A DNA stretch of 64,000 nucleotides from Blakeslea trispora (lineage: Eukaryota; Mucoromycota; Mucoromycetes; Mucorales; Choanephoraceae), in assembly GCA_025331445.1 (NCBI GenBank), contig JAIWNE010000129.1, positions 1 through 64,000 of the forward strand, read 5' to 3'. Under the pieces are notes generated by a model that saw nothing but the letters and a program-made list of their open reading frames with translations, did no database searches and was not told the DNA's origin. The position numbers were made by a program, and so were the translations under genes. This document shows, piece after piece, positions 12,750 through 47,248 of this stretch (positions are counted from its first letter, which is position 1; every line of letters starts with the position of its first letter).

Positions 12750-13481
12750 ATCTGCATCATGACGCTGTACGTTTACTTGTCTAGCAAACATCAACGAAAA
12801 TGGAGTGCTCTTGGTCTTTTCTCTGACTTTCATATTACACACAAGCTGTACCATATAAAGTATGTTATCCCAGTCACGTTGGTCATTACCGCACATTGTT
12901 CGAAGTGTATTTTGGACTACCTTGACAGCGTTTTCGGCGACTCCGTTGCTTTGTGGATAGCGAGGTGTTATGAAGCGATGATCAATAGCCAACGTCTTTG
13001 TCACTAATTTCATAAGGGAATTTTTATATTTTCCTCCGTTATCAGATTGCATCACTAAACTGTCAGGTAAGCCATAGTCAGCGAATACTTTGATCAGCAC
13101 ATCTACTATGGTCGTACTCTGCTTATTAGGTACAAGTCGAGCGATAATATACTTTGTGCACACGTCAACGATCACTACAATATAGCAGTTTTGTCTGTCT
13201 GTTATTGGGAATGGACCACAAGTGTCGATTGCGATATGCGAGAATGGTTCAAATGCGACAATAGGACGAAGTGGGTTGAATCCTTTTCTTACGATCTTGT
13301 GTTTAGCGCATTCTTTGCATGATTGCAAGATGGTCTTAACATCGTTATAGATTGAAGTCCAATGCAGGCCATGGTAAGTGTGTATGTGTTTCACTACAGC
13401 ATCAATACCCCAATGACCAAGCTTGTGAGCTTCCCGAATGATGTCTGCTCTGGCATGTTCAGGCGGACATACATAATCGGT
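12750..13481 (-). pseudogene. gypsy2 copy B, integrase fragment (split gene, part 1)
   Basis: Minus-strand frame with the integrase HHCC finger (HKLGHWGIDAVVKHIH, CKECAKHK) and catalytic IDTCGPF, QSDNGGKY and GVAENAVKV segments, nearly identical to gypsy2 copy A at 34813-35546. It stops exactly at the gypsy1-A LTR after ...GATGCAGAT. The next codons resume at 53027 (CAGATGCCGAAAAG), 40 kb away on the other strand; CAGAT is the 5-bp duplication made when gypsy1 inserted here. Upstream it is truncated at about 13481 by an LTR-like block. Confidence 0.9.
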
Positions 13482-13894
13482 TGTGTTATAATCCAATAAA
13501 TCACAATGAAATAAATCCAAGGAATTAACCAGACTAAAGATAATCTTTTATTTACTTCAAAATTGATGTGCTATTTATACTTTTCATGAAGATGATATTT
13601 CAACTGAGATTGTAAAACTTTTCTAAAAGCTTGTAGATGATTATGATAATAACAACGAATCGGATGAGAGATGAATGATGATAGTCTTGTAAAGAAGAAT
13701 TACTAAGATAGAATGATTGGCCATCTGTACCTTAAACCCAGTAACTGGTAAATTATTGGCAAGATGTCAGTCCTGACCTTGAATGAAGGTTTATCCGAAT
13801 TGAATGTCAAATGAAACAAGCTGAAGTTGAATTAGAGAATGGTTGTAGATTCATAAGTGGTTAAATAATTGATCCGTACTGTATGAATACAACA
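13482..13894 (-). repeat. LTR-like block between gypsy3 gag and gypsy2-B
   Basis: On the minus strand it runs from TGTTGTATTC to ATTATAACACA and contains GTATAAATAGC followed by AATAAAAG, like an LTR promoter and polyadenylation region. Flanks (TCGGT left, GTGTG right on the plus strand) do not match. It separates two truncated elements, so a deletion or LTR-LTR recombination is likely. Bounds are approximate. Confidence 0.45.
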
Positions 13895-14955
13895 GTGTGG
13901 TTGTTTAGATTGGGATGATTTTTACAAAATAGTTTTGCTCGTTTGGAAAATTGTTCATTTTGATTGGTCACCGTTATTTTTCTTTCTTCGTTTGTGTGTT
14001 CTTTTTTCCATTGCATTGTTTCCATACAATTGTACAGACGTTGAGCATCTTCAACAAGATACTTGATTTTGTTTCGTTTTTTAGAGGAAGCTGTGGCATT
14101 GAACAAGGACAGATGTTCGTATAGTCTGGGTTGTAGAGCTTCCAAAAAGAATTGGCATAACATATGCTCATCGAAAACTTGAGCTGCATTTTGCAGTGCA
14201 TTGAATTGATTGACAAAATGATCGATATGTTTGTTTTTTCCCATTTTAATGTTGAGTAGCTTGTTGGTAGCTGCTTGTTGCAACTTGTCGTTTGAAATAC
14301 CGTACTTTTCGTTAATAGCCTTGCACATCATTTCCCAGGTTACGTTTTCGTTTTGGGTAAGGTAATCACTAAACCAGCAATTCATTTTGTCAGAGAGACA
14401 GATGGGCAAGAGACGTTTGTAATACCAGTTGACATTCAATCCATACGACTGGACTACCGTTTCAAACCTGCGTAAACAAGCTTTAACATTTTCAAACACA
14501 GTAACATTTTCATTTTGGATTGGGCCACCTTTCCATTGTATCAAAGGGAGATTGGGAGGTACAACAAATTGCTTTTCTTCATTTTGCGGTTGCAATAGTT
14601 TTTGGCATTCTAAGGCGTACTTGAGCTTGGCTTTCACTCCTTTGAGCTGGGAGTGATTTTTATTGAACTGATCTGTATTGATGGAGTTGACAGATTTCAA
14701 GGTCAAAATCTCCAATTGTTCTCGAAGCTGCTGTATAGCTTGATCGATGTTGGATGCTTTAGGTGTTTCTTTAGTGTCGACTGAGTTGACATCAGTCATA
14801 TTGACGTCTTCTGATTCTTCGTTTTTGTTGTCGTTAGTTTGAGGTGAATCTGGTCGTATATCCTCAGTAAGTTGGAGGACAGCTGGTGAAGAGTGGGTTG
14901 AACTTTCAGCCGACGGAGTGTAATTGACGAGTGAGTTTTGGGGAGAGTTGCTCAT
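13895..14955 (-). pseudogene. gypsy3 Gag, truncated
   Basis: Minus-strand frame starting MSNSPQNSLV 43 bp after an LTR. It has an acidic Ser/Thr-rich N-terminus, a coiled-coil-like stretch (QAIQQLREQLEILTLKSV), and a retrotransposon Gag core resembling gypsy1 Gag (PNLPLIQWKGG, LLPICLSDKMNCWFSDYL, WEMMCKAINEKYG). It ends in FCKNHPNLNNHT, the start of a C-x2-H-x5-H knuckle, where it is cut by the neighbouring LTR-like block; the last codons of the open frame (down to 13861) come from that block. No protease or pol of this family is in the window. Confidence 0.8.
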
Positions 14956-14997
14956 TGTAGATTTCAGTATTCTTTTGTTGCAGGTAATTTCAAAAAA

Positions 14998-15280
14998 TGA
15001 TTTGTCAGTGTACAGAAATACAATAGTAGATTGAAATTAGCCAAAAAGATACTGTTTATTGAGTGTAGAATAATAGCTTATTTATACTAGAATATCTGTG
15101 TCAGATTGAAAGTACGAGTATAAGGGTTTGATACAATAACTGGGCTTTGCATTAGAATAGTTGACTAGCTATCACGTTTAATCAAAGACAGTGTAATGAA
15201 GCCATGTCAAAATCTGCATGATTTATTTTGTAATCGAATGTCAGTGATTGAACCCTTGACGTTCTGAGTAGATTACATCA
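14998..15280 (-). repeat. gypsy3 5' LTR
   Basis: About 283 bp reading TGATGTAATC...TGACAAATCA on the minus strand, starting like the gypsy1 LTR (TGATGTATCG). It has TATAAATAAG and CAATAAACAG. The sequence just past the LTR (14985-14993) is the exact 9-nt reverse complement of 15031-15039 inside it, again suggesting self-priming. It cuts the LINE at 15281. Confidence 0.7.
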
Positions 15281-17092
15281 GCTACATTGATCCAGCTATT
15301 TTATTGGTACATATGCGATGAATTATGCCATGTTGTATGATAGATACAACAGAAGGGTTGAGCACAATGAGTCTGACGACCTCATAGGGCAAACCATCCG
15401 GACCAGGACTACTTGTACGAGGACAGCGAGAGAAGGCTTCAATCAGTTCAATTAGAGTGATAGGCTCAAGCAACATCCTGGAGTCTGATTCAGAAATTCG
15501 AGCAGATTGAGGGAGAGAGTTCAAGAGTGAGGCAACAGCATTAGGATCAACAGGATCAGGCGAGTATAGCTTATCGTAGAAAACGAAAGCTGCATCCAGC
15601 ATCTCATCTTTAGTAGAGCAGAGACGATCTAGACCAGGATGATGGAGAGGTGGGATGGAACCTTTGGAGAGCCTAGCTTGAGCTGTCCGGCTAAGATAGC
15701 CAGCGGAGAGTTCTCCTTTCTCCCGCCAACGAATGCCTGCTTTCAACGCTAAGTTTTCGACATGGTATTGTTGCAAAGATGTTAGTTGATCTTGGACAAC
15801 TCGAAGTTGGGGAGACAACTCAGAAAACAAAGAAGGGTTACGAAGTATATTGGACTCAATCTTAGCACGTTTGCGTTGAAGCAATGATTCCGCGCGAGAA
15901 AAGGTGAATGCTTGGTGTCGAGAATGAGCCCTGGCAGTTTTGGCCGTTATCTGTTTCAGCTGCTCCCACTTGTAGGAAGCCGGAAGATGACTGTCCATGC
16001 TAGCTACCGCTTGTTGAAGATGAAAATCCAGCTTTCGTAGGAAATCTTTATTATTTGCCAAACGTGGGTGCGCTTTCCATAGGCCCTTTCCAATAGAGGT
16101 AGCCGGAGATGACGAAGACAAAGGAGGAGGCAGGCGCAAAGTCAAGGAAAGCAGTCGGTGGTCTGTCCAGTCTAGTGGTAGAAAACCAACCGTACTACAG
16201 TTCGGCTTGACATGTGATAGCATATCCTTAGTTGTAAAACAAAAGTCGATGCATGATGTTCCTCGATGGTTTTGAAAAGTTGGTGCCGCTAGATGACCTA
16301 CAGGTGTGATAGCATCCACAAAAAATTGGTCAATGTACTCTAGCCATTGTTGCGGAGCCTTCCTAGGGGTACTGCGAAAATGATTGGCATAGGAATAATT
16401 GAAGTCTCCCAAAATCACCTGCCGTGTGGGTGAAGAGGGAAAGAAAAGAGGTAAAGTATCAGAAGAGAGAAAAGAAAACCTCTCGGAACTGTTGGCAGGA
16501 AAGTAGGCGACTGTAACAGTAAAAGGAGCGAAAAGGTTGAAACGGTGAGTGACAGAAGTATGAATTAGACGGCCACAGCGGCTGACAAAGGAGTTGGAAA
16601 GCTCTATATCAGGCGTGAAACAGATCAGGCCACAATGAGTAGACCAGATACTGTCTTGGGTAATTTATCTGTTAAGTCAAGATGAGTTAAACAAGATTAA
16701 GAGAGGGTTTTATTCAGTGTAGAATGAGATTGTCAATATAAATTGAGCTTGGTGACACAAAGTAGGATTGTGTCTTAAATAAATGTCTTGATTTAATGAT
16801 GCATCTAGCTTACGATACATCATTGGGCTTGGAACTGAGTATGCAAAGTGGTTTGTAAAATTGGATCAGTAGCATGAGTTTCCTGAAGAGCTAAAATGTC
16901 ACAGGATAAGGTACGAAGATGGCGAATGAAAGATGTACGAACAAGGGGATTCGCTGTCTTAGCAATGCTGCGACAGTTAAGAGATCCCATTTTGAGGTTA
17001 AAGGGAGGACGAGATGATGGGTTGGGTTGTAAGTTTGAAGTAGGGAGAGGAATGGGCATAGGGTTCATATTCATAGACATAGGGTTATTCAT
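15281..17092 (-). pseudogene. LINE ORF2: AP-type endonuclease and start of RT, interrupted
   Basis: On the minus strand, directly after ORF1, a frame starts at 17092 and has endonuclease motifs in order: MGSLNCRSI, DILALQETHA, then (after a 162-bp solo LTR and one copy of the 5-bp duplication) STHCGLICF, ILGDFNYS, SCIDFCFTT and WTDHRLLSL. A linker leads to the RT start (CPRTSSPGPDGLPYEVVRL), where the gypsy3 LTR at 15280 truncates it. Reading is continuous once the LTR is ignored, so that LTR is the only break in the endonuclease. Family: non-LTR (L1/Tad type). The RT catalytic core is absent. Confidence 0.85.
16661..16822 (-). repeat. Solo LTR of gypsy1 in the LINE endonuclease
   Basis: A 162-bp gypsy1 LTR in reverse orientation with a perfect 5-bp duplication TTGGG at 16656-16660 and 16823-16827. 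The internal region was lost by LTR-LTR recombination. Confidence 0.95.
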
Positions 17093-17103
17093 AATTATAT
17101 TAA

Positions 17104-18558
17104 TTATTGTTGTGTAAGAGAGGAAATTAAAGAAGATTCAACGGGATCCACTGGAACAACAAAAGGTGGCATCTGAGTGTTTGGAAGCTCATCATCCATT
17201 TCCATGTCCGAGTCTGAAAGCTTAGAAAGAGATATCTGAGTAGACTGAGTATTTTCTCTTAAATATTTTGGGTTCTTTAGACAATGTTTGCTGGTAGTAC
17301 GACTATGTCCTTGTAAACCACAGTGTACGCACGTGGCAGGAGGTGGAGAGACAAGATCCAGAGGTATCTCCTGAACTTCCGGAGAGGACTGGCGCTCCAA
17401 GATACGCTGCGATTGGCGAGAGGAAGCTGTAGAGGAAGAAGGAATTTCAGGAACAGAAATAGGAACAGATGCCATCTTTGGCATCAAAGAACTGGGTAAC
17501 TCAAGCTCAATAGGGAGAGAACTCTGAGACAAAGAGACTGGAGGTGAGACCACCACAGGAGGTGGAGTGGATTGTGCAGGAACCGGAGCTGGAGTCTTAC
17601 GCTTTTTTCCTGAACCAATATTCTTTCTGGGACAGGATCTAGCGATATGGCCCGATTCGTGACAATTGTAACATAAAGTTGCGTCCCGTCTAAGCTTGCA
17701 ATCGGCCAAAGCATGGTCGGATGCATGACAGTAACGACAAAATGGAGCCATAGAGGCCCAAGTAGCTCTAACCTGAACTCGATTAGGGTTCTCAAGTAGT
17801 ACAATGGACTCAGTAACTGAGAAATCAACTGGATGATACGACCAATCGATTAAATGAGATAATGAATGATATGAAGGAGAGGTCGTCTTATCAGAACACT
17901 CAAGAACTACAAAACCATTTCCCGAAAAAGCGCCCCCAGCGCTGAAGTCAAGCCCACAATCAACAATTTTGCCAAAAGGCTCTAAATTGGAAAACATATC
18001 ACCTCGAAGTTGAACTAAGCCACTCGCGCCTCGACCATAGATTAATGGAAGACCCGAGAGTGAAACTTTGAGAATCTCAGCAGATGGAGAGAGAGATGGA
18101 AACACTGAGAACTTGCCATGAGTTTTCAGTTCGAAGCCGTCCCTCTGTAAACGAACGTAATGAGAAGGTGAAACTGTGATCTCGGCATACCACCGAGAGT
18201 ATTCACGACGAATGGTTTGAGAAATGCCCCAAAGATGTTCAGCACCTCCACTGTTGCAAAGTTCGTACAATTCAGCAACGAAGGAAGGTTAGTTATCGAC
18301 GCTAGTGATGTCGATCAGGAGTGAGTTGGAAAAGGTGCCCTTGAGAAATGGTCTCGCAACACGTCTGTAGACATCATTCACCGCACTTTCTGTGAGTTGC
18401 CCACGCTCCACAGAAGGCTGGGTGTTTGAAGGGTTATATGTAGTGATTGAGGTACGTTGTTTGCCTGCAGTTACTGCATCAACCCAAGACTTCATGTTTG
18501 TCTTCTTAATAATCGGGGTTTTAAAGGCCCCTTTGTGTTGAATAGTGGAAGAAGCCAT
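17104..18558 (-). pseudogene. LINE ORF1 (Gag-like, CCHC), one stop codon
   Basis: A nucleic-acid-binding ORF1 upstream of the endonuclease/RT ORF. The frame starts MASSTIQHKG at 18558 and is continuous to 17104 except for TAA at 18289-18291. The protein has a globular half and CCHC knuckles CRYCHASDHALADC and CYNCHESGHIARSC, then a Pro/Ser-rich linker and a third, CVHCGLQGHSRTTSKHC. Only 11 bp separate its stop from the ORF2 start. About 220 bp of AT-rich DNA upstream may be the 5' untranslated region. Confidence 0.82.
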
Positions 18559-18785
18559 GCTGATACATCTTTCTTTATTTTTCTCCTTAACAAGAAAAAA
18601 ACATTCAAGCTCAAGCTGAAATGTACTTAGAAAAAAAAAGGAGGAAATATTTCTCGAATTTTTATAGCTGAGATCTAGAATTTTTCTAGGAAATCTAGAG
18701 TTTTTCTTGGAAATTCAAACCACAGTGCTACCTTTTTGTTGTTGTTTTTGAAAAGAAGAAAGAAAAGAAAATGAGGAATTAGAAA

Positions 18786-18900
18786 GGTGAATACTTGGCG
18801 CACTCCGGTAGAACACTCCGGTGGCTTAGATATTATAGGTAGTGGCTTATGAGGACGTCCTTATTCTTAGTTATGCTAGTAATAAAATATGTGTGTAACA
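18786..18900 (+). repeat. MULE terminal inverted repeat, left
   Basis: 115 bp starting GGTGAATACTTGGCGCACTC and matching the reverse complement of 27663-27777 with one T/C difference. It contains two copies of ACTCCGGT. The arms diverge right after GTGTAACA. Confidence 0.95.
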
Positions 18901-19137
18901 CTCCGCTAGACATTGTTGCATGATTATTATGGATTGACAATCCAAAGACAAAGTAGCTTGTTTGAATTCGATTAAAAGTGTGTTGTTAATTCATATGAAT
19001 AATTATAAGTTACAGTGCCTCCAGTCTTAAATCTTATAAACTTTAATTTCTTTTCAAATTTTCCTTCATTTAAAATCCCGCTATATTATTAAAAATCCGA
19101 TAGTAATTTCCAAAATTTGTGATTTTATTGGGTGATT

Positions 19138-21333
19138 TTATTGAGTGATTTTATTGTCCACTTTCACTTTTCTGTGTGATAGGTATCTTTTGTTAACAAA
19201 TTTCTCTAATTCTAGAGAAATTTTTCGGCCATCACTACACTCACTGTATGCTTCAATGTAATCCATACACTTCTGGAAATACTTTCTTATATGAGCTGTA
19301 TTGCCAGCTGTATCCAGAAAGGTCGACACATTGGCTTCAAGCGATTTGAAGGTGTAATCACACTTCAAACGGGCTTCTCGCTTGGCATATGACCAATAGT
19401 ACTCTATCCAGTTACATTCGCAATGATACTTTGGATAGAGCTCAAAGATGTGACCAGCATCTTCAACAGTTTCTTGCAGTGCGGTTTTTTGAGCCTTGAA
19501 GTCTGGGCAACTTTCAAGATAATGCCTTGCACAACACATAGATTGAGCACATGCTGGCTTGCCACAATCCAGCTTCCAGGCTTTGCCTTGCAAATCGCGC
19601 CCAAACCACTGGCTTCTTTCTTCCAGGATTTTTTTTATTCCTATGATTTACCAAGTCAGACTGAGTGCGTAAAATGCCTTAAGCAATTACCTTTGAAGAA
19701 TCTTTTCTTTAATACCACTGGTCGATTCTTCTTATCCAACGTGTGGATCTCTTTGTCATAGTAAAATGACTTATTCAGCGGATCGCCGTTAGCCAAAGTA
19801 ACTAAAGTATCTTTGAACTGATACTTTAGCCTTTCACTCCATTCTTTTTCGTTGAGCGTCATTCTAGACGCAACCAAAGCATCATCAGCAAATGCACCAT
19901 GATTGGAACTGTTGTCAAATAGGAAGACAGCAGTACAATCAGGATGCAAGCTCTCGAAAAGCCCTATGGCATCCTCCTTGAGCTGCTTTACCATATGTGC
20001 GGAAGTCCACCCCCCTTCCCTACTGTCTCCTGCTTTGAAGTAGGTTCTTGAGGACCATCTCATCTGCTTCATAGTTCCATGGCATGGGCACTGGAACTCG
20101 CTTACCATGATTGACGAGCCCATGGACTTCTTGCGGATGTAGTTTTCATCCTCTTGCAACCACAATACTTCTTTTCCTAATTGTAGATACAGAAATGATT
20201 AGTAGATGAGCATCAAAGATCTAAACGTACTTACCGTCATTTGCATAAAAAGTGCATTCGTCATGAGTAACGAACACAATCTTGCTTTCACCCTCATTCA
20301 GCTTTGGCTCAAGAATAGCCTCTTGCTTCTCTCCAGAGTAAAAGTCTGATCTCCTCATATAGTTAATCATTCGCTTTGACTATTCATTTCTGTAGGCAAC
20401 TACATCTTCTCTTTCGTGGCCATCGAAATACACTGTCTTTTTGTTCTTTCGATAGCTGTAACCCCATTCAACCATATAGTTTGCAATGTTTGAAATGGGG
20501 ATACAGCTCTTCACACCCAAGACAGAAGGAACTGCTTCTTCATCAATGTACTTCTTCAGTACAACGAGAGATCGCTCAGCAGGAGGCATTTGCTTGATCT
20601 TCTCAAGGATCATCAACTTCACATCTGAGTCACTTAAGAGAGATGATCTCTTGACATGGGCGCCTTGCTGATGGTCGGACAGCTTACCCTGATCAAGAAA
20701 TTCCTTGACCCACTTGATAATAGTTGCAGCTCTATAAGGCTCTGAGTTGTCAGGCCAGTAGAGAATAGCAGCTGCCTTTGCAGCTTCACCTTTGTGTACA
20801 CCTTCAAGACGCTTCATGAAGTAGTACTTCACGGAGAGATACCGAGCGTTGTTATAGGTATCTCTCTTCTTACCTTCCTTCTGCTTGTTCATTACAGGTG
20901 AAACATACTTTTGAAGGTCACCAAGCTTCTCTCTGATCAAGGTGATCTCTTTCTCGCGAGCACTGATTTTCATTTCCTTTTTTTCAGGAACCGGCTTTTG
21001 CTGAACAGTGATACCAAAGCTCATCAATGTTTGTTCAGGCCTCACTTTCTCCTGTTCCTTCTTTCTTCTCCACTTGGTGGTAGTTGATACCCCTTGGTAT
21101 ATACCCTTTCTCTTCGTCAAATTGCTGTTGTTGCATGAGAGAGTGTTGTTGATGTTTTTCTCTGCAACCTCAACAGATTCCTCACTTTCAATTCTGGCAT
21201 TGACTTCATCCAAATTAATGCCATCAATGATCCAATCATCACGATCCTCTACTTCGTTAACTGTGACGAACTGATTGTTCTCATTTCTGCTTCTGTTCTT
21301 GAAAGCTTTTTGTCTAGCGTTAAGTGGAGGCAT
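19138..21333 (-). pseudogene. DDE transposase, three exons, one stop codon
   Basis: Cut-and-paste transposase. Exon 1 (21333-20235) has a basic N-terminus and a helix-turn-helix-like part, ending FDGHEREDVVAYRNE. A TAG at 20380-20382 interrupts it, after which the same frame continues to the first acidic site, VFVTHDECTFY. Introns 20177-20234 (GTAAGT...TTAG) and 19641-19690 (GTAATT...ATAG) are clear and keep the frame. Exon 2 (20176-19691) has GGWTSAHMVKQL and VFLFDNSSNH (second Asp). Exon 3 (19640-19138) has a Cys-rich part (CGKPACAQSMCC) and YHCECNWIEYYWSYAKR (Glu). This type is common in fungi, but I cannot name the superfamily with confidence. The stop fits a single TGG or CAG to TAG transition. 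Confidence 0.8.
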
Positions 21334-21534
21334 AATTTTATAATGTTTAATGAAAATGGAGAAGGGATATTGGGTTTGATGTTTTCTTAATTTATTGTCT
21401 GATATGGTTACACAAATATATTACAGGTTACACACTGCTATAACAATATCATATAGAAATTTTTTATTTTTCAAATCTGACCCTCCACCATATAACTCCC
21501 AGCCAAAATTTTTAAAAACCGACTAACTTCAAAA

Positions 21535-21661
21535 CCTATCTGCTCAAAACTTTTGGTGACAAAAACAAAAAGCGAGCCTGAACAATTGTTTAGAAAGGTT
21601 TAAAGAATATATATTCAGGCTCGCTTTTTGTTTTTGTCACCAAAAGTTTTGAGCAGATAGG
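21535..21661. repeat. Perfect 48-bp inverted repeat (hairpin)
   Basis: Arms 21535-21582 and 21614-21661 are exact reverse complements with a 31-nt spacer. They begin CCTATCTGCTCAAAACTTTT and include GCGAGCCTGAA. Weaker symmetry extends outward on both sides. It lies between the transposase start and the right TIR of the DDE element. Confidence 0.93.
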
Positions 21662-21858
21662 TTTCGAAAACTTGTAAAAATTTTCGTTATTTAAAAATGG
21701 AGGCACTGTAATAAAATAAAGAACAAAAAAAAAGTAAAAGAGAAAGGGTTTGTCTAATCTAGAAAAAGTACTTCACTATTGCCATTATCTGTCATGAAAA
21801 TTAATAAAAGGAACTTGCAGTTATTCAACGTAATCTTACCTGGATTTTTTTCTCTGCT

Positions 21859-22586: not shown

Positions 22587-22628
22587 CTGAAGATGCAAGT
22601 TTTAGATGCGAGTTAATAGAAGCCAGAG

Positions 22629-24695: not shown

Positions 24696-24712
24696 TTAAT
24701 GAGTAACATACC

Positions 24713-27777: not shown

Positions 27778-27816
27778 ATTAGAAAAAAAGGTTTGTATGT
27801 AATACATATTACATGG

Positions 27817-28249
27817 TGCGATATTTAGGTATGAAAAAATAGATAAAGGTTTATAAGGAAAGTATAGTAAATAGTTTGGGACTATTTTACGTATGCCTTT
27901 ATTATGAACAAAATAAATGAGAGTATTTATACCAATTGCTATCTACTATTGCTATTACGTCTTTGACTTTCTTTAGTCTTTACTCTTTACTAAATCAGGA
28001 TATTCAAGAGAACAATGTCATAGACTAGTTTGTGTCACCTTTAATGACATATTGACATTTTACTTTCTTTAGCAAGACTTATTGCTTATCATCTTCTTTA
28101 GTCCAGATTCATAGCACTTGCTAATGAAATCATTCTAGAGTGACATAATGTTGGTAGGATTACTTAATCCAATTATGATGTAGATCTTTATATACAAATA
28201 TAGACCTCAATTCTTAAGGAATTCATGTTCAGACAAGCCAAACACGACA
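27817..28249 (-). repeat. Solo LTR, family S (433 bp), copy 1
   Basis: Same sequence family as 36251-36683. It is flanked by CATGG (27812-27816 and 28250-28254), a perfect 5-bp duplication. Ends are TG...CA on the plus strand. A GGTATAAATACTC box and AATAAAGG on the minus strand set its direction. No internal region of this family is seen here. Confidence 0.92.
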
Positions 28250-33080: not shown

Positions 33081-36000
33081 GTTGCTCACAGATACCCTGA
33101 TGAACCCGAAAAAGAACTGACTCAATTTGAAAGCATAAGCTTTGATCCTGAAAATCTGATTAACCCAAAAGATTTAGACTATGGCACTGAACTTGAAAGA
33201 AAAGAGCTAATGAGCAAGGTCCAAGCATCATTAAACCGAAACATGAAAATACCTAGTGATGCAACATGCACTATGAAAGATGCAGTTGTCAAAATACCAA
33301 TGAAAGAAGGAGCTAATTGCTATGTAAGACAATATCCACTACCTGCCGCTGCTCATAAGGAAATTGAAACCTAATTATTCGAGTGGATTAGAGACGGGAT
33401 AGTAAAGGAGTGTAAGCCCTCAAACAAGTATCATTCACCACTTCTTGCTGTGCCAAAGAAGGCTGAAGAAGGTAAACCAGCAAAACTTAGAATTTGTTGC
33501 GATTTAAGACGAGTGAACAGTAATATCAGTGAAACGTACAATGAGGGTTATGCTGTACCCAAGATCCAAGAAATCTTTGACCGTGTTATTCAAAAGGGCA
33601 AGATATTCTCCAAGTTGGACTTGAAACAAGCCTATTACAGTTTCCCTGTAGATGAAGGATCGCAAGAAGTACTGACCGTCTCATACAACCATCGATTTTA
33701 CTGCTGGAAGAGAGCACCTTTCGGGCTATCATTCCTCACTAGCTTATTCTGCTATAATATGCGTCTACTACTAGGTGATATTCAAGGCGTTGAAACATAC
33801 GTCGACGACTGCATCCTTTTCTCTGATACTATTGAGGAGCATGTCGCAGTAGTCAACAAAGTGATTGACAGGCTCACATCCGTAAATCTACGAATCAACT
33901 TCGAAAAGACTGAACTGTTTAAAACAAGTGTGATCATGTTGGGATTTGTAGTCGGGCCTGGTGTTCGAAAGGTAGATTTGTCGAGACTATCCAATATTAA
34001 CAGTTGGAAGATCCCTCAAACTGCTGCACAGGTTAGAAGCTTAATGGGTATTATTTCGCACTTACGAGACTATTGTCCCATGCTCAGTAAGATCGCTGCC
34101 CCGATCGACAAGCTACGCACTGATTCAGACGTAAAGAATAACTGGACCGGGTTACATACCGAAAGGTTTAACTCTATCAAGCAGATACTTCAATCAGGAC
34201 TGGTACTGCATCAGGTGGATCTCAATAAGAAGATTTATCTGGAATGTGATGCATCTCTATATGGTATAGGTTGTGCTCTCTCGCAAAGGGATGAGCTGGG
34301 AAGAACAAAGTACATTGCATTCATTAGCAGATCGCTAAGCCCTGCTGGAAGAAATTGGTCTACAAATCGTCGAGAGACTGAAGCAATCTGCTTTGGCTTG
34401 GAACGATTCCGATCTCTTCTGTGGGGTAGAAGCAAACATATGTTTGAGATTCGCACTGACCACATGGCATTGACGTTCCTACATACTTCCACTAATCTCA
34501 ATCCATCTCTGCAATCACGTATCGAAATCATCAATGACTTTGATTTCATCATCACTCATGTTAAGGGCCTCGACAACACCTTACCAGACAGACTAAGCCG
34601 TCTTTATCCACCAATTCCCGAAGACCAAGCTTTGGCGGGGGAGGATGACAAGCAGTTGAATAGATTGAAACGCTTGATCTTGACTATACGAGCTGATCTG
34701 ATCCAAAACAAGTCAAAGAACCGATTTTCACAAAAACGACGCATTTATTCAAAAGATGAAAACCTGAACGTTTTAGCCATAACGTTGGACAGTGATGAGT
34801 ACAAAGCAAGAACAACCGATTATGTATGTCCGCCTGAACATGCCAGAGCAGACATCATTCGGGAAGCTCACAAGCTTGGTCATTGGGGTATTGATGCTGT
34901 AGTGAAACACATACACACTTACCATGGCCTGCATTGGACTTCAATCTATAACGATGTTAAGACCATCTTGCAATCATGCAAAGAATGCGCTAAACACAAG
35001 ATCGTAAGAAAAGGATTCAACCCACTTCGTCCTATTGTCGCATTTGAACCATTCTCGCATATCGCAATCGACACTTGTGGTCCATTCCCAATAACGGACA
35101 GACAAAACTGCTATATTGTAGTGATCGTTGACGTGTGCACAAAGTATATTATCGCTCGGCCTGTACCTAATAAGCAGAGTACGACCATAGTAGATGTGCT
35201 GATCAAAGTATTCACTGACTATGGCTTACCTGACAGTTTAGTGATGCAATCTGATAACGGAGGAAAATATAAAAATTCCCTTATGAAATTAGTGACAAAG
35301 ACGTTGGCTATTGATCATCGCTTCATAACACCTCGCTATCCACAAAGCAACGGAGTCGCCGAAAACGCTGTCAAGGTAGTCCAAAATACACTTCGAACAA
35401 TGTGCGGTAATGACCAACGTGACTGGGATAACATACTTTATATGGTACAGCTTGTGTGTAATATGAAAGTCAGAGAAAAGACCAAGAGCACTCCATTTTC
35501 GTTGATGTTTGCTAGACAAGTAAACGTACAGCGTCATGATGCAGATGCCGAAAAGAATCCTCAAAAGATTGGCAGAAAACCTTTCATGTCAGAAGACAAG
35601 CTGATGGAAAGAGTTGAATACATGCAAGACATTGTTTTTCCAGCTGTAAGCGAACGGGCAAAGAAGTTAGCCGATGAATACAGTAAAAGGTTTGATGACA
35701 AACACTACCTTATTGATATTCCTGTGGACACTACTGTCATGGTCAGATTGGATAGACGAAAGAACAAACTGGCACCTCTTTATGAAGGACCGTTCACAGT
35801 TGTTCGCAAAACTGAAGCCGGAAGTTATGTCTTGAAGGACGAAATGAACGAGCTCCTGCATCGTGAATATGTACCTTCAGAATTGAAAATCATCACTCTG
35901 GACGAATCTAAAATTGATGATGAAGTCTATGAGGTTGAAAGGGTCATCGATCATCGAGTCCTTGAAGGAGGTAAGAAAGAGTATTTGGTGAAATGGGTCG

Positions 36001-36224
36001 GTTATGACGATAGCTGGAATCTTTGGCTAGCCCCTGATCAATTCTCATCGCCTGTTACCATCAATGAGTATTGGCAGCGAATTGACGAGGCAAAACAGAC
36101 CACTGATTCTCAAGCTGGGTTGACGCGTAAGAGAGGCACTGGAGATAAAAGAAAGAATGATAGAAGCGAGAAAGACGTACGTGAGAGAAAGACAAGACGG
36201 TCTAAGAAAAGCAGAAAAAATTAA
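33081..36224 (+). pseudogene. gypsy2-A Pol (RT, RNase H, integrase, chromodomain)
   Basis: In frame with gag, broken only by TAA at 33372-33374 (CAA fits). RT motifs include LRICCDLRRVNSN, FSKLDLKQAYYSF and ETYVDDCILF (YVDD). RNase H has YLECDASLYGIG and FEIRTDHMAL. The integrase has the HHCC finger and IDTCGPF, QSDNGGKY and GVAENAVK. The chromodomain is YEVERVIDHR...EYLVKWVGYDD, then a Lys/Arg tail. From 33450 on, 924 codons are open. With its gag stops it would need suppression or trans help to move. Confidence 0.93.
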
Positions 36225-36250
36225 TCGCTTTCTAGAATTCCGCAGTCTCC

Positions 36251-36683
36251 TGTAATATTTAGGTATGAAAATAGATAAAGGTTTTAGGAGGAAAAATATA
36301 GTAAGTAGTTTGAGACTGTTTTACGTATGCCTTTATTATGAACAAAATAAATGAGAGTATTTATACCAACTGCTATCTACTATTGCTATTACGTCTTTGA
36401 CTTTCTTTAGTCTTTACTCTTTACTAAATCAGGATATTCAAGAGAACAATGTCATAGACTAGTTTGTGTCACCTTTAATGACATATTGACATTTTACTTT
36501 CTTTAGCAAGACTTATTGCTTATCATCTTCTTTAGTCCAGATTCATAGCACTTGCTAATGAAATCATTCTAGAGTGACATAATGTTGGTAGGATTACTTA
36601 ATCCAATTATGATGTAGATCTTTATATACAAATATAGACCTCAATTCTTAAGGAATTCATGTTCAGACAAGCCAAACACGACA
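36251..36683 (-). repeat. Solo LTR, family S, copy 2, inside gypsy2-A
   Basis: 433 bp with a perfect TCTCC duplication (36246-36250, 36684-36688). The other gypsy2 copy reads CAGTCTCCTCCTAG uninterrupted at about 53728, confirming the insertion site. Promoter-like GGTATAAATACTC on the minus strand. Confidence 0.96.
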
Positions 36684-36835
36684 TCTCCTCCTAGATACAC
36701 ACTTTCAAATTTTCTACAACCTTATATTTTATTTTTCATGCGCACATCAATTATGCAGATACCAAAAGCTTAAATCACATATATTGACTTCCTTAAACTA
36801 TCAAGTACAACTTCGTTGACTTTGGTGGGGGAGCA

Positions 36836-37218
36836 TGTAGTGAACTACATAACTATAGATACCTATATTCTTAAATCAACCAATCAAATCCTTCTATTTC
36901 AGTATAATAATAACTATTCTTCATGCTTCCAATTTCGAGTCTGACATCGAAAGGCTATCCAAGTTAGTATTCTCGCCACACCTTAGATGCGTACTTTGAA
37001 CTATCATAGATTCTAGATATCGACATCGAAGGAATCATGTTAATATACGATCAACAGCAAACTAGATATTATAAATCATCCTAGCTTTCGAAAAGTATAA
37101 ATAGAGAGATAATTTAGAAGTAGGATTAGATAAGATTCACTTTACTTTTGTATTGGAATAAACCCCTTTAAATCTATTTGTTTTTTTTAATTTATTTTTT
37201 TAGCTGTCAAACAGTACA
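36836..37218 (+). repeat. gypsy2-A 3' LTR
   Basis: 383 bp, nearly identical to the 5' LTR (length differs by one T in a T run and a few substitutions), preceded by a polypurine tract. Confidence 0.94.
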
Positions 37219-37670
37219 GAGATGATCAGGGAATCTATTTTAATATCGAGGATACGGAATACTATATCATTGATCATGTCTCAGATATTCAGTCTACTCA
37301 GCTCTCAGGTCATAGCTGATCTAAGATGGTAAGATAGAAAAAATTGTTTTAATAAATTCTTTAGCACCATCTTGTCATTTTCATTGTCACATCAATTCTG
37401 ATTCGGTATAGCTGATATCAATAGTTTATCCACATCGATAAGGTCTGAGTCCCAAGAGCCAATTGGTCTATTTGATATATGATCCAATTTGTCTCTCAAT
37501 TTAGCATCATTTTAGAATCGATCTCTAAAGGATAGATAGATGAAGTAGACATTGATCTATTACAGTTACTCTAGTTCTATTCTAGACTCTATGTCCAGAT
37601 ATAGCCTGTATAATAATACTTTGTATCATTTATTTCGTAATCAGTATATAGATTCTAAATGTTCACAACA

Positions 37671-38230: not shown

Positions 38231-38642
38231 TGTGATATTTGCAGTCTCAGATAAATTCAATGAGAAGGAACTCGATTTTTTTATTAAATAGAAAGAGAGC
38301 GAACTAATTCTACTGCAAGTTCATGTTGTGTTTATATATTATTTCTATCTCGGTTTCAATCAATCACTCCGTTATAATTTTATCCGTATGAGCAGTTTTC
38401 CTACTAGGATGACTGGTCACCTTAATGGAAAGATGGCTGTAGCCAGATTTCATCCCCCGCCTTGAATAAGGTGGAGATATACTGTTTACTTGATTTATAT
38501 CTTGGAGAGATAATAATTATGCTCGACAAGATATGTTTAATCTTGATTAGTGTTTCAATATATCAGGCATAACTGTTTCATACTTGTTCACTTGTTTCGT
38601 TGGATGTTAAGATCAGTTTAGACTAGGTGATAAGGATAGACA
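38231..38642 (-). repeat. LTR-like dispersed repeat, copy 2
   Basis: Matches 3347-3759 with a few substitutions and small indels, and ends with the same AGCCCTTT extension. It abuts the truncated LINE. No flanking duplication found. Confidence 0.6.
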
Positions 38643-38689
38643 AGCCCTTTCACCACAGCTTAAAAAATGCTGAGGTGAACTTTTTTTTT

Positions 38690-38778
38690 GTCAGAATCTG
38701 ACACGAAAACCTTGAAATTCAATTAAGGCGGTTTAAGGTTTTTGTCAGAATCTGACATGATTTCTGTCAGAATCCGAC
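38690..38778. repeat. Three near-palindromic GTCAGA-A-TCTGAC motifs
   Basis: GTCAGAATCTGAC at 38690-38702 and 38744-38756, and GTCAGAATCCGAC at 38766-38778. Each is a 6-bp inverted repeat around a single base (the third has one mismatch). Function unknown. Confidence 0.7.
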
Positions 38779-38989
38779 ATTTTTTGTTGAATGGCAAAAC
38801 CCTTTTGCGGATCATTTTGAATAGGAGTTGTCTATAATCGAATCATATCCAGCTTAAGTCTCAAAGGGGAGTTATAAGGACAAGTTGCCTTCGTCGTATA
38901 GAGCGATAGTGATTTAACAAGTTTTAGAAGTATAAGCAATAAATGGGCTAATCGTATCGCTTTAATTTTCGGATGAGCTTGGAATATGA

Positions 38990-39373
38990 TTGAATTATTT
39001 AGGTATTACGGGCAAATCAAGCTTCTTTAATTTTATTAATTTGAATCAAATAAATGCTATATATGGGTTCTTCTTTAGGCTGATTTGTAGCTCAGATGTC
39101 CTTTTTTGTAAAAGGGATGCTGCATCGGGTGTACCCAGATTGATTGGCATGCTTGGCTTTGATATAGATACCTTTTGGGACCATAAGAAGCAAATAGGAA
39201 GCAGAAATGAGTTAATTTCCATGACTAGAGCCATCAATAAGCACCTTAATCGCTTTGCAGTAGCTGCGCTTGAAAATTGTACAGCCTTAACCGAGAGTTT
39301 TTTTTTCGTAATTATTTTTTTTCTTGACAGCCATCTTGAAGCGACATGCAAGGTCATGAGCAACACCAAGTAA
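38990..39373 (+). CDS. Hypothetical ORF (127 aa)
   Basis: Open frame MNYLGITGKS... with a central stretch (KRDAASGVPRLIGMLGFDIDTFWDHKKQIGSRNEL) of ordinary protein composition, then a hydrophobic FFFVIIFFL run encoded by T-rich DNA. I recognise no domain. It may be an exon or remnant of an unknown element protein. Confidence 0.25.
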   Translation: MNYLGITGKSSFFNFINLNQINAIYGFFFRLICSSDVLFCKRDAASGVPRLIGMLGFDIDTFWDHKKQIGSRNELISMTRAINKHLNRFAVAALENCTALTESFFFVIIFFLDSHLEATCKVMSNTK

Positions 39374-41204
39374 GAGATCACTCGTCACCAGTACACACAA
39401 GAGTTAGAAACAAGAGAGGAAAAAAGTGAATAGCATATAAAGTCTAAAAAAAACGAAAAAAATAAAGATGAGACGCGATTCTTTACACATGTACTTTGTC
39501 ATCAGCATGTTGTGTTCTTTAGTTGCAATTAGGTACCTCATGAGTCCAGCCAATAGTGAGAGCAACAGTCAGAAGTAAACAGTTGATAAAGAGAAGTTCA
39601 CTCGGTAAGACAGTCAAGTCAAAATAATCTGGAAGCAGTATTTCACTTGTCAGGAAAGAGATTCAAAGCGATGAGGCAAGCTCATCTGAGATGGAGCACC
39701 CATGTAAGCATGAGCAAAGGCAGGAAGACACAAAAAGAAGAAAAACACAAGCAGTAAAGTTGGAAGGAACCCCAAGTTCAATCGAAAAGAGATTCGGCAA
39801 CCTTTAAAAGCACAGACCATAGTAGTGGAAGGAGAATAGGCGGATAAAGAGCATTTCTTGAAGATGAGGTAGAGAGATGGCGACATGAGAAGAGACAAAT
39901 TACCCTGAACGACGGTACATTAAAGGGAAATGGTAATTCAAAAAGCTAGGGCAATAACCAGAGACAATACTTAGATAGGTGGACCACATGTGCACATAAG
40001 AAAGAGGATAGACATGAATGAATCAGACATAGGATGGAAGCTTGGTAGGCGATTGGATATACGATTGTCAAAGGGTTTCAAGGCAATAACTACAAACAGA
40101 GCAAGTTAGTCGATGCAATGTATACAAAAGCATTTGAACATATAAATGGAGAAATCGAAGGACCTTAGGCAAGAGTAACTTGAAAAAGACGCATCAATCC
40201 AAATAGGCAGCCCTTTAAGAGATGGTATACAGAAAATAGTCAAAGAGGTATAAGTTTGAGCAGCATGATATAGAGCAGGCAGTTTGGATAAAAGAGTCAT
40301 TAATGAGTTGGCAGAAAGCAATACAGAAGAGTGTGACATGGATAAAGAATTGTCTATCAAAGTTAATGATGAGCATCTACACTAGTATATATAAAGTGGA
40401 TGATAAACAGATATATACAGATGATGAGTTGGAAGAAGCAAAAAAACAAGAAGAGAAGCGTAGTCGAGTTATTGAGATGCTGTCATGATAAGGTGATATA
40501 CATGTAGCTATTGTGAAACAAAAGAGTCAGTGATGTTGATGGATTATATGATATTTGTTAAAAAAAAAGAGATAAAAGTGCTTACCATTTGCTGTGCATT
40601 TACTGAAACAAAAAGAGAGAAAAAAGAAAATGGGGGATTGAAAAAAATGGCTAGTATATATGAAAAATATGGCAGTGATGGGAAGAAAGTATGATTTCAT
40701 TGACAGATTCAAGCTAAAATCATACTGAAAAGGAAAATGTCTTGGATTTGCATAAACAAATGTTATTAGTGATCAATTAAAGGAACGCTTTACAAAAGGG
40801 GATTTTAAAGAAGCACTTCAAACAGAATCTATGAAGAAAGCTGATAGTAAAGCGTTGAGCTGTTTCATGTTAAACAAATTTGAGTAAAGCAATTTTAAAC
40901 ATAAAAGTGATAAGTTAAAAATCATAATGTATTAAAAGCAACTCCTTACATAGTGTCGCTTTTGATCATGATTCAATCGATTATAATTATAGGATGGTAC
41001 ATTATGAGGCAAATATAATATAATCATTCATTTAGTGTAATCGCTCATACATATATAGTATCAGCGTCGCACCCTTTAGATCCATCTAAATACTAAACAT
41101 TGAAGAATGCAAGTTTCAGTTGTTCAATCAGGTAGAAAATTATAGCAAAGAAATTGTGAGATAAAAAGTTAACCCTTTATCCCTATATATTTAAAATAAT
41201 ATGG
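39374..41204. other. AT-rich DNA, only weak ORFs
   Basis: No recognisable domain. A minus-strand frame (39898-39650) has a signal-peptide-like core (LLLVFFFFLCLPAFAHA) followed by YMGAPSQMSLPHRF and then a stop. A plus frame (40303-40488) ends in an acidic stretch (DDELEEAKKQEEK). Neither is convincing as a gene. Confidence 0.35.
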
Positions 41205-44200
41205 TCCTGTAAAATAGTTACTGTTCGCAGTCACATTTCAACCAATAATAATGAGCTTTGAACAGCGACAAATTATGAGCGTTAAGTCAGCTGGGAGGGG
41301 GTTCAAGGGGGAGGGTCGTCCCTCCCCCTCACGCGAAGCCAGACAATCAATTTGTAAAAAAGTTATTGTTCGCAGTCATATTCCAGCTTTTCAATTTAAT
41401 TTTTTTTCTTCTTTCTTTACATTCACTTAAAACAAACTAAAATGACTGAAAGAATTTGTCCTCATTGCAACAAACCTGGCCATGTACGTCGCACTCATCG
41501 CGACTGTGATGCTAATTTGCAACGTAACTGTTCAAGCTGTGGACAAGAAGGCCATCGATTCAACACGCATCATGCTTGCCCAAACAATCCTGCAGTTTCA
41601 AGTTTGAATCAAGATAGCACCCAGACTCCATCCAATAGTACATCTCTTCCCACTGAAACTGGCATCCGAGAAAACCAAGATGGTGCGAACCAATACGTAT
41701 GCAACTCTTGCGGAAGTTCCACTCATCGTCGCAGAACCAACCGGAGTTGTCCTTTTTATCAAAACAATTCACTAATGGCTGCCAGAGATATATCCAAAGT
41801 TCCTACCGAAAGAGACGACTTAGGTATGATGGATGTTGTTTGTGTTGAGTGTAATGCCTTAATGTGGATTGAGGAGCGTACTTCAAACTCGAGCAAAATC
41901 CATCCCAACTTTCATTTGTGCTGTTGTAGTGGATCTGCTATCATTGAGCCTTTGAGTGCAACACCACCTGTTTTGGTTTCTTTGTTGACAGGTCGTGATC
42001 AAAGATCGATTGAATTTAGAAGCAATATTAGATCTTACAACAGTTCTCTTAGCTTTGCTTCATTGGGCGTAAAGCTTGATTTGAGCCTTGCAAACATGAG
42101 ATCTGAAAGCTATACATTTCGTATACAAGGTAGTCCTTATCATCTGATTGGACCTGCCCTTCCTGAGAATGAAGCAACTCCTAAATTTGCTCAAATATAT
42201 ATTCATGACTCAGCTAATGAGCTTCAAAATCGAGCATCCAGCTTTCCTGATATGAATCTGGATACACTTGAACAACTTCAAGAGATGATGCATTCAATGA
42301 ATCCGTTTGTTGAGTTGTATAAGAATATGATCCAAATTGCTGAAGAACAACGTGATAATGGTGTCCCTTCAAGTGTCAGTAACAATGGCATTAATGAATT
42401 GAATGAGGTTAAGATGATCTTTCGTGCTGAGGGCTTACCTGATAGAAGACGGTACAACAGGCCAACTGGGGATTCCGAAATAGGAGTGATTATAGTTGGT
42501 GGTGAAGGATCTTCTAATAACATGGCTACTTCAAATCGAGATGTGGTTGTTCAGTTGAAAGGCGATGGCTCTCTCACCAGGATAAATGAAACCAATCAGT
42601 TTTATGATCCTCTTCACTACGTTCTGTTACATCCTGACGGTATGGCTGCCTGGAATATTGAAACTAAGAGTCTCAATGCTCCACACAATAAAGTATCAGC
42701 TATGGCGTATTATAGTTCTCGCCTAATGGTCAGACCTAACACTGGAAATCTTCTTCATCTTTTTGGTAAACTATTCCATCAGTATGCAAAAATGGAACAA
42801 GGTCGATTATCATTTATCCGTCATCATCAAGAACAATTAAGATCTGAATTGTACCAAGGTTTAGAAGATGCTTTGAACAGTAATGACGGGGCAACTTCCT
42901 TAGAACAAATAGGGCAAAAAATCATCTTGCCTTCTTCTTTTGTCGGTGGGCCTAGACACATGCATCAAAACTATCAAGATGCTATGAGTATAGTTCGGCG
43001 TTCTGGCAAGCCTGACCTATTTATCACTGTAACGTGTAATCCTGCTTGGCCCGAAATTCAACCTGAGCTTCAACATGGACAAAAAGCACCTGACCGACCT
43101 GATCTATGCGCTCGAGTCTTCAACATGAAGCTGAACCGCATCATTGAGGAGATAACAAAGGGGTTGGTGTTTGGAAGAATTGTTGGCTTTGTGTATACAA
43201 TAGAGTTTTAAAAGCGTGGTTTACCACATGCACACATGCTTTTCATACTACACCCTGATGATAAGCCAGCAACTGCTGAAGAATTTGATGCAATGATCTC
43301 AGCAGAAATTCCAGATCCTAACTTGCATCCGCTTGCCTACGAAACTGTCACTAAAAACATGATTCATGGTCCATGCGGTGCACTTAATCCCAATTCACAA
43401 TGTATGAAAGATGGTCAATGTACAAAGCAGTTTCCTAAAAGCTTCTCTTCTGAGACGAAGATCAACGCTTCAGGAGGCTATCCTGAGTATATGAGACGTA
43501 ACAATGGAGTTGTCGTTTTGAAAACAATAAGTGGGAATCAAAGGCTAAGCATTGATAACAGGTGGATTGTACCCTACAATTTGTACCTTTGCACAAAATA
43601 CAACGCACACATAAACGTTGAATCATGTGCATCAATTGATGCTATTAAGTATGTCTTCAAGTACGTATACAAGGGTCATGACCGAGCTGCTGTTACCATA
43701 GAAGAAAGGAATGAAATCAAGCTCTATCTTGATGCTCGATACGTCTCTGCCCCAGAAGCATGCTGGCGGTTATTTCATTATCATTTGCATAGAGAATATC
43801 CTGCGCATCAACGCCTACAAGTTCATTTGGAGAACGAGCAAGCAGTATATTACAGCGAAGAAGACAATCTTAGCTTAGTGGTACAAAGAGCCGCTATTCA
43901 AGATACTACTCTGACTGCTTGGATGAAAACTAATAGGTCTGATCCCGCTGCCAGGAATATATTGTATCCTAACTTTTCAGAACATTATGTATGGCACAAT
44001 GACAGGAACAAGCACTGGACACCAAGAAAAAGAGGTAACACCATCGGTCGCATCTATACTGTTTCTCCAAAACAAGCTGAAAAGTACTACCTTCGTATGC
44101 TTCTATATCATATTCCTGGAGCTCAGTGCTTTGCTGATATGAGAACAGTAGACGGTACAGTCTACCCTACCTTTCAGCAAGCAGCAGAAGCACTTGGCAT

Positions 44201-46620
44201 ACTTAAATCTGATAGTCAATGGGAGCACTGTTTGGCAGAAGCATCTGTATTTCAGTCAGCAAAATCGCTCCGTAATCTGTTTTGTACTATTCTTGCTTTT
44301 TGCTTTCCTACGAATCCTTTTGAATTTTACTTCAAGTTTAAAAAGGACATGTCAGACGTTTACATGCATGAGTTACAAAACGATGAACAGATTGATCCAA
44401 TAATCACAGATATTGAAAGCCTTTCATACGACTATTGTCTTCTTGATTTGGATGAGACTCTACGTGGCCAATACGACATTGATCTCCGTACTTATTACGG
44501 ATTTAACATCCCTGACATTAGCATTAGATCAGGAAATACACACGATGCAAATGTTCCTATTATTATAAGAGAGCAACAACGTTTGATCATGATTGCGCAA
44601 GCCAAGCCAGATGATGTCAATGAATCGCAGTTCAACGAAGATCAGCTTTTGGCATACCGGGCCATTATTAATGCCTATCAAAACGTAGATTTGCCTTCTT
44701 CGGATGGAAAGATGTTTTTTGTTGATGGTCCTGGTGGGACAGGCAAAACCTTCTTATTTAATGCTTTGTTGCATAAAGTTAGAAGAGAAGGCAATATCGC
44801 TCTGGCTGTAGCTTCAAGTGGCACAGCTTCACTATTGATGGAAGGTGGAAGAACTGCTCACTCGACATTCAAGATTCCCTTGAAAATTATTGGATCTTCA
44901 ATGTGTGGCATCAAGCCCAACAGTAACACTGCTTTGCTTTTAAGAATGACAAAGATGGTGATATGGGACGAGGCTTCTATGATAAGCAGAGAAGTTTATG
45001 AAGCAGTAGATAGAACATTTTGGGATATCCTTAAAGCCGAAACCCCCATTTTTGCCGATATTCCTTTTGGTGGCTGTCTATTTGTGTTTGGTGGTGACTT
45101 TAGGCAAATTCTGCCTGTAATTCCAAAAGGTAGTAGAGCTGATATTGTATCGTCATGTTTAAACATGTCTTTCCTTTGGCAATACATCACAGTGCTCAAA
45201 CTTCGTGTAAACATGCGAGTCAAACAAGCTCTCAACCGTGATAATCCCAATCTTGCTCTTCAATTACAAGCATTTGCAGACTATCTTCTTGATATAGGGG
45301 ATGATAAGGTTGAAACTCTTTCAATCAATATCTACCGGCGCCCAACTAAGACCGATCTGATTAAGCTTCCAAAAGCTATGGTTGTTCCTGGTAACAACTT
45401 GATCAATCTCTTGAGGGGTGTTTATCCTGGGCTGTATTCAAATCCTCAGACAATCGATCACAGTTCCATGATGTCTTCAGCTATCTTGACTACTAATAAC
45501 AAAGATGTAGCCAGCATAAATGAGCTGCTGCTTAGAGTTTTCCCAGGTGAATCAAGAACCTACTACAGTGCTGATAAACCAAAAAACATGGATAATCAAC
45601 AGCTTGCACCAACTGAGCTTCTAAATTCTATCGAAACAGGTTCCTTGCCACCACATGCATTGACATTGAAAATAGGCGTTCCTGTCATGTGTTTGCGTAA
45701 TCTCAATCCCAAGCAAGGACTTTGCAATGGCACCCGCTTAATTGTTAAGTGTCTACTCGCAAATGTCATAGAAGCTTGCATTGCAACAGGATCTCATGCT
45801 GGAACCGTTGTTTATATTCCAAGAGTCAAAATACATACAGACAATGATCCCTCTGTTCTTATGCCTTTTGAAAGATGTCAGTTTCCTGTGCGACTTGCTT
45901 TTGGAATGACTATTAACAAAGCTCAAGGGCAAACTTTAGATAGCCTTGGATTGTATCTACCAAACCATGTTTTTGGTCATGGCCAATTATATGTAGCCTT
46001 ATCCAGAGTCAAAACCCCTGAATCAATTAAGATAATGGTGGACAGCAACTGCAACACAAAGCTTCCACACTCCATACAATCATCAAATGAAACATACACA
46101 AGCAATGTTGTTTATACAGAAGTTATTAAAAATTACAGCCCTGATATCAACATGGAATCTTAAAAACAATCTTATCAATTACCTTACATATATTATCTCA
46201 ATCTACTTTTGCTATTTAGAACAATAAACTCATCTTACCATAAAAACAAAATTTATACCTCTATGGAAAAAGTGCAATCTAACTCATACTATTAGGCTTT
46301 TTTTCAAAATCATCCAATTAGCTTAATTCGTTTCCACTGCCCCGGGACTCATGTTTTTTTTTACCAAAGCGACGGTTTAAAATACACGAAGCGCAGCGAA
46401 GGGGTTATTTTATACCATAGCGAAGGTTCAAAAAAAATATGGGTGGGGCCCCCACATTGATCTTCTCATCGAATTAGTTGGCCTGCGGCAGCACGAGCAA
46501 ATTACAAAGCGCAGCGTACCGAACCATAGTGAAGGTCAAGAAAATTAACCAGAGCGCAGCGGAGGTGCTAATTTTATTGCCGCAATGGAGGTGCGGTTTG
46601 TAACATGCTCGTTGTATGTA
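41205..46620 (+). mobile_element. Helitron (rolling-circle transposon), ends approximate
   Basis: Contains a RepHel gene. A candidate 5' end is TCCTGTAAAATAG at 41205. A 33-bp subterminal motif (41208-41240) recurs at 41353-41385 with 29 matches. Between them lies a GC-rich hairpin (41307-41328, loop TCGT). Downstream of the gene, three AGCGCAGCG motifs (46390, 46508, 46553) and a small hairpin (CCGCA...TGCGG, 46580-46596) mark a candidate 3' end, but no clear CTRR terminus was found. Confidence 0.75.
41442..46163 (+). pseudogene. Helitron RepHel protein with one stop codon
   Basis: Rolling-circle replication initiator fused to a Pif1-like helicase. One frame of 1574 codons, broken by TAA at 43209-43211 (EF-stop-KRGLPHAHM, where family members have EFQKRGLPHAHM, so CAA to TAA). 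The N-terminus has three CCHC-like knuckles (CPHCNKPGHVRRTHRDC, CSSCGQEGHRFNTHHAC, CNSCGSSTHRRRTNRSC). The Helitron-like domain includes NPAWPEIQ, the HUH site LPHAHM (codons about 594-599) and the Tyr region IKYVFKYVYKGHD (about 735-747). Helicase motifs: GPGGTGKTF (about 1096), VIWDEASM, FGGDFRQILPV, GMTINKAQGQTL and YVALSRV. All catalytic motifs are intact apart from the stop. Confidence 0.94.
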
Positions 46621-47243
46621 ATAATCAGATGTATTTATACTAATTTGAATATTTCTAGTTAATGCTGATGAGAATTGTGATGAAAGTGATTAAGTGTGAT
46701 GGGAAGGAAATCCACATGTATTTGAATCATGGTCATTCGTGTTTGTATGTGTTTTTATCCTTTTATTGACAAGACAATGTCTATTGTCATGCTTTGATTC
46801 ATTAGAAACCATACGCATGATTCTGTATGTGTACATTTGTCCAAATATGGATGTGTCAACATTGAAATTGGGACATGATTATTTATAACTGTAATTTGAG
46901 CCTGTGTAACTATGTCTGTATAAGACATCAGTTAGAACATGCTGTCATTTTATGACTGTTTCATGTTCCTCAATATATCGTAGGATGGTGGATATCAGAA
47001 ACACCAAAAAGAAGTATGCAAATAGATCATTCAGATGCAAAAAAATGGTGATGAATCCCTTTAATTTAATAAGAACTGTCCATTATGATTTTGCAATAAT
47101 CAATCTTCATTTTATCGAACCTCTAACGGATACCGTAAATTTATTTCTGAAGCAAACATACTTATTCGCTAAAGCGACTCAAATATGTATCTTGTTTAGG
47201 AGTGATGTATATGTGACTTATCGCATTAGATCAATAAATAAGT
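46621..47243. other. AT-rich DNA, no gene
   Basis: One open frame (46952-47251) matches nothing known and runs into the gypsy1 LTR. Under the inversion model the right edge (ATAGA, 47244-47248) was once next to the flank now at 6983. Confidence 0.35.
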
Positions 47244-47248
47244 ATAGA

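Follow-up and report, generated by a model that had tools for sequence, protein, structure and literature searches.

Gypsy1 copies and their flanks

The window is the whole stretch of DNA analysed, 64,000 nucleotides corresponding to positions 1-64000 of contig C34 (92,359 bp). Paralogues were sought in the 37.2-Mb, 285-contig assembly. An EF-1alpha fragment of this genome was 96% identical to an entry named Mucor circinelloides/Mucoraceae and 94% identical to Blakeslea trispora, with all further rows among the 120 matches listed at 92% or below (the 8000 candidates with most shared words were scored); the host is thus most likely a mucoralean mould. The features needed for the analysis are as follows.

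6984-12749, + strand: gypsy1 copy A (gypsy1-A), a complete Ty3/gypsy LTR retrotransposon (self-BLAST, LTR scan, Pfam)
6984-7145 and 12588-12749: LTRs of gypsy1-A, 162 bp, identical (LTR scan)
6979-6983 and 12750-12754: flanks of gypsy1-A, TCTAT (left) and ATCTG (right)
47249-53026, - strand: gypsy1 copy B (gypsy1-B), complete, opposite in orientation to A (self-BLAST, LTR scan, alignment)
47244-47248 and 53027-53031: flanks of gypsy1-B, ATAGA and CAGAT on the plus strand
2535-6983, + strand: left part of the dispersed repeat TE3, target of one gypsy1 insertion, collinear with 2654-6239 of L046 (contig C32)
46928-47248 and 38816-41121 (span 38816-47248), - strand: rest of that TE3 copy (its right part), lying beyond the inversion, matching L046 6234-6555 and 6550-8876
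30905-37218, + strand: gypsy2-A, with no interruption at the insertion point, 35542-35546 (self-BLAST, Pfam)
12750-13484, - strand: upstream half of gypsy2-B, broken by a gypsy1 insertion, 99.5% identical to 34812-35546
53027-54266, + strand: downstream half of gypsy2-B with its 3' LTR, 98.6% identical to 35542-36251 and 97.0% to 36684-37218
16661-16822, - strand: gypsy1 solo LTR within the segment, its CCCAA duplication intact (internal control; LTR scan)
12750-47248, no strand: the 34.5-kb segment read as inverted relative to the insertion state, from exchanged target-site duplications (TSDs) and contiguous paralogues at both junctions

The LTRs of gypsy1 are 162 bp long with the ends TG...TA; together with 5-bp TSDs in the LTR scan and the domains of the coding region they place gypsy1 among Ty3/gypsy elements of the chromovirus type. 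A single 1705-aa open reading frame (7186-12303) encodes, in the order expected, gag, protease, reverse transcriptase, RNase H, integrase, and chromodomain. In Pfam, the protease, reverse transcriptase, RNase H, and integrase each matched at least one model above its cut-off, the chromodomain scored 25.3 bits against a cut-off of 25.1, and the gag match, at 21.7 bits, was below the cut-off of 24.1. The 24 database relatives of this protein have merely 21-29% identity to it across 10-54% of the reading frame. Copies A and B share a length of 5.77 kb and show 15 substitutions and a single 12-bp CAA-repeat indel in a pairwise alignment (99.5% identical), with zero differences from A position 446 to 2127. 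Relative to the earlier note, the boundaries of B are corrected to a start at 47249 with the left 5-mer at 47244-47248.

Neither copy has matching flanks. In element orientation, A is preceded by TCTAT and followed by ATCTG, and B is preceded by ATCTG and followed by TCTAT; that is, the 5-bp TSDs are reciprocally swapped. The LTR scan thus bears out what had been claimed before, that the left flanks of A and B are reverse complements of each other and that the right flanks are as well. Based on the 5-mer composition of the window itself, the chance of both matches occurring together is approximately 1.9e-6.

Target repeats at the two junctions

The right flanks of A and B lie in gypsy2. It had been proposed that the integrase gene of gypsy2-B is split, its halves meeting at the shared CAGAT in the way that gypsy2-A reads across this point. 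The halves 12750-13484 (-) and 53027-53735 (+) do meet at 35542-35546 of gypsy2-A. All 5 upstream-half and all 10 downstream-half candidates were scored, and the halves abut with a 5-bp overlap in all three copies with matches on either side of the point (gypsy2-A 35542-35546, C15 25624-25628, and C282 41796-41800). Matches away from the junction were on C31 for the upstream half and on C177, C146, C2, C246, C127, and C17 for the downstream half. The gene is broken here as proposed, but not in the integrase core; the insertion point lies near residue 595 of the 821-aa gypsy2-A reading frame, downstream of the core (430-528) and before the chromodomain (724-774).

Two other observations were made on gypsy2. 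Gypsy2-A contains a 429-bp insertion (36255-36683) that is 97% identical to 27821-28249 and is missing from gypsy2-B; it looks like a separate short insertion. The match between gypsy2-B and gypsy2-A stops at 13484, and beyond it is a gag-like reading frame (13861-14955, - strand) with 24-26% identity to the gypsy1 and gypsy2 gags and no Pfam match, which perhaps belongs to a third element family.

At the other junction, the left flank of A (6284-6983) has many genomic copies, and this flank and the last 321 bp of the left flank of B (46928-47248) are parts of one dispersed repeat, TE3. The match lists comprised the best 40 of 83 candidates for the A flank and the best 40 of 119 for the B flank. 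We defined close copies as those outside the window where the B-flank match reaches query position 696 or beyond, at 82-97% identity; two B-flank places, on C97 and at C266:127865, fall short of the junction end and were not counted. Among the matches listed, all 19 close copies have the two TE3 halves side by side, correctly ordered and oriented. The overlap between the halves is exactly 5 bp in 18 of these, and the copy on C66 abuts with trimmed ends. This junction had rested on a 5-mer alone and is now seen to be contiguous in every close copy among the matches listed.

Another 19 places, diverged copies with 78-83% identity to the A flank, reach the junction without a B-flank row among the matches listed. 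In all 19, the order and orientation are as expected for the far part of the B flank (for the most part the first 117 bp, at 66-73% identity), which comes next but lies nearer, with no alignable sequence directly at the junction. These copies agree in order but give no base-level test. TE3 falls into a close group (approximately 87-94% identical to the A flank) and a diverged group (78-83%), the latter shorter at the gypsy1 insertion point.

The L046 copy of TE3 carries, in order, window 2535-3346, 4225-6983, then 47249-46928, and then 41121-38816, which is the order of the window once 12750-47248 is flipped. A second close copy, L047, has the same order from 5972 on. In the window, the left part of TE3 is broken by an 879-bp block (approximately 3346-4225) and the right part is split by a 5.8-kb block (41122-46927) containing Helitron-type reading frames; these gaps are probably other insertions. 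A 316-bp repeat (46612-46927), beside the block of Helitron-type reading frames, adjoins the left flank of B and has many genomic copies of its own.

The flanks at both breakpoints are therefore contiguous in repeats of the same genome, which are paralogues and not an allelic strain. Flipping 12750-47248 had been predicted to restore both duplications and rejoin the gene, and the contiguous paralogues at both junctions agree with this prediction. Two unlinked insertions with errors in their flanks were ruled out, because the wider flanks and not merely the 5 bp are contiguous in paralogues. Because the target repeats show an interruption with a shared duplication only when 12750-47248 is flipped, both gypsy1 insertions predate the present order. 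How the segment is arranged, and how this relates to the insertion state, can be read directly in the assembly, and for the sequence as assembled it is as good as certain that 12750-47248 is flipped.

Gypsy1 copies elsewhere in the assembly

As a control, we scored all places with the 5' internal part of gypsy1 (18 of 18 candidates), which are A, B, and 16 others. The copies on C259, C253, C265, C246, and C283 were left out because an LTR was partial, not found, or past the contig end. An exact 5-bp TSD was found in eight of the 11 other copies with two LTRs (C237, C217, C103, C87, C15, C64, C214, and C274). Both the C15 and the C64 copy are interrupted by other DNA, as their ends are separated by 12-15 kb. 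One further copy, C266a, has flanks that are one base off. The flanks are unmatched in two copies, C19 (five of five bases differ) and C266b (three of five differ), the latter shorter than the rest by about 400 bp. All 10 gypsy1 solo LTRs among the best 40 of 140 LTR candidates have an exact TSD. Across the 78 pairs formed by the 13 two-LTR copies, A and B are the sole exact reciprocal pair.

These results bear on whether the flip arose in the assembly. The genome could be in the insertion-state order, the assembler having crossed between the 99.5% identical inverted copies and flipped the middle without other trace. One error would be enough, since a single wrong path through the inverted pair yields both junctions, and long stretches of A and B, such as A 446-2127, are identical. 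A contig end falls inside the gypsy1 copy on C283, so the element is not always spanned by the assembler, and the unmatched flanks of C19 and C266b also fit with joining errors. However, most other copies are spanned with their TSDs, eight of 11 exactly and one more with one base off, which suggests a low error rate for gypsy1. That the element is spanned with matching TSDs in most other places speaks for a real inversion. We consider an assembler error unlikely, if quite conceivable.

The C19 copy (L032, C19:52600-59300, element 501-6267) is another complete gypsy1 with the unmatched flanks CCTAG and ATAGC. A paralogue of its right flank lies on C15 from 94790 on (93% over 708 bp). The leftward continuation of this paralogue had no match to the DNA left of the C19 element and none in the genome but itself, and searches of this genome found no exchange partner. 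C19 is a second candidate for an exchange, a deletion, or a wrong join.

Origin of the present order

The central claim of the earlier note was an inversion bounded by two gypsy1 copies in opposite orientation, and the uninterrupted paralogues support it in that the assembled segment is flipped compared with the insertion state. Two hallmarks of a TE-mediated inversion are present: the breakpoints carry homologous copies that point in opposite directions, and the TSDs are exchanged. We infer that a homologous crossover between the inverted copies, in the organism and by ectopic recombination, is the likeliest cause, and we hold it to be probable. In the course we propose, two gypsy1 elements would have inserted separately and in opposite orientation, one into TE3, where TCTAT was duplicated, and the other into gypsy2-B, where ATCTG was duplicated. 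Within the shared 5.77 kb, a homologous crossover would then have inverted the intervening 34.5 kb and swapped the outer parts of the elements together with their duplications. The outcome would be the two target repeats, TE3 and gypsy2-B, each split across the segment. The crossover point would lie somewhere inside A and B.

A, B, and ten other gypsy1 copies were aligned and examined for a switch in the relatives of A and B along their length. Six of the 15 differences between A and B are private to A, five are private to B, and four are common with some other copy. Because 11 of the 15 are private, the test is uninformative on the relatives of A and B. Five sites separate A and B from the other ten copies. 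Four of these, at 5422-5494, recur in the 3' fragments on C177 and C198, both identical across a 106-bp probe, and on C234, which has one difference; therefore, they are a subfamily mark and not the result of an exchange between A and B. In A this cluster of four substitutions corresponds to window 12405-12477, with B likewise, and the LTRs of the three fragments that share it are of another subtype. The cluster probably goes back to an earlier template switch or conversion in the source that these copies have in common.

The LTRs were also compared. At LTR site 46, the 5' LTR of B has C, whereas its 3' LTR and both LTRs of A have T; C214, C87, and C266a have C in each of their LTRs. B looks discordant at this site, yet it does not decide the matter because either pairing needs one extra event, mutation or conversion. 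Dating of the exchange from the LTRs was tried and rejected; those of A are identical and those of B are one base apart, too little to order events.

Gene conversion alone was ruled out, since a conversion that lacks a crossover leaves kilobases of outer flank unexchanged. To our knowledge, there is no case in an LTR element of aberrant transposition of a hybrid element. For transposons, such transposition is described in the Galileo study (PMC2775673).

Both orientations could be present, between nuclei, between strains, or through a toggling inversion, with the assembly reporting one of them. Long inverted repeats such as these would permit recurrent flipping. Against this, no second allele of the left flank of A was seen in the assembly, the best other long match being 94% among the best 40 of 83 candidates, and the 11 substitutions private to A or B indicate that the copies are not wholly homogenised. 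We regard this as very improbable. A more specific form, a standing reversible inversion in which a single mycelium has nuclei of either orientation and the 5.77-kb gypsy1 pair keeps recombining, seems to us very improbable as well; if true, TE pairs would act repeatedly as a flip switch in the mould. The weights given here to crossover, wrong join, and mixed orientations are judgements and were not computed.

The proposed crossover between A and B has parallels. Ty-mediated rearrangements in yeast arise by ectopic recombination between dispersed LTR retrotransposon copies. This too is a fungal case, although the elements and the host differ. As a further comparison, inverted TE copies with exchanged TSDs are used as the signature of TE-mediated inversion by ectopic recombination in the Galileo study (PMC2775673). 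As described there, inversion 2z3 of Drosophila buzzatii is similar to the present case in having one TE, in opposite copies at both breakpoints, with TSDs swapped as reverse complements (PMC2775673). According to that study, Galileo is a transposon of the P superfamily with 7-bp TSDs, whereas the elements here are LTR retrotransposons with 5-bp TSDs (PMC2775673). Also, the non-inverted chromosome was sequenced for 2z3 and both copies are chimeric (PMC2775673), whereas the present case is known from one assembly and 11 of the 15 A/B differences are private; unlike 2z3, this segment is just 34.5 kb.

The locus, in which the element is an LTR retrotransposon and the host probably mucoralean, is a new instance of a known signature and not a new variant or mechanism. 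Among the titles listed in literature searches, 12 of 291 in one of them, none concerned such an inversion in Mucorales, which is not evidence of absence. The locus provides a base-level example of a pair of LTR retrotransposons reshaping a probable mucoralean genome, or misleading an assembler, and paralogous repeats confirm its two insertion sites. Exchanged TSDs combined with contiguous paralogues can be used to screen assemblies for such events without a second strain.

As a separate observation, approximately 140 bp at 21528-21668 match their own reverse complement at 88% in self-BLAST.
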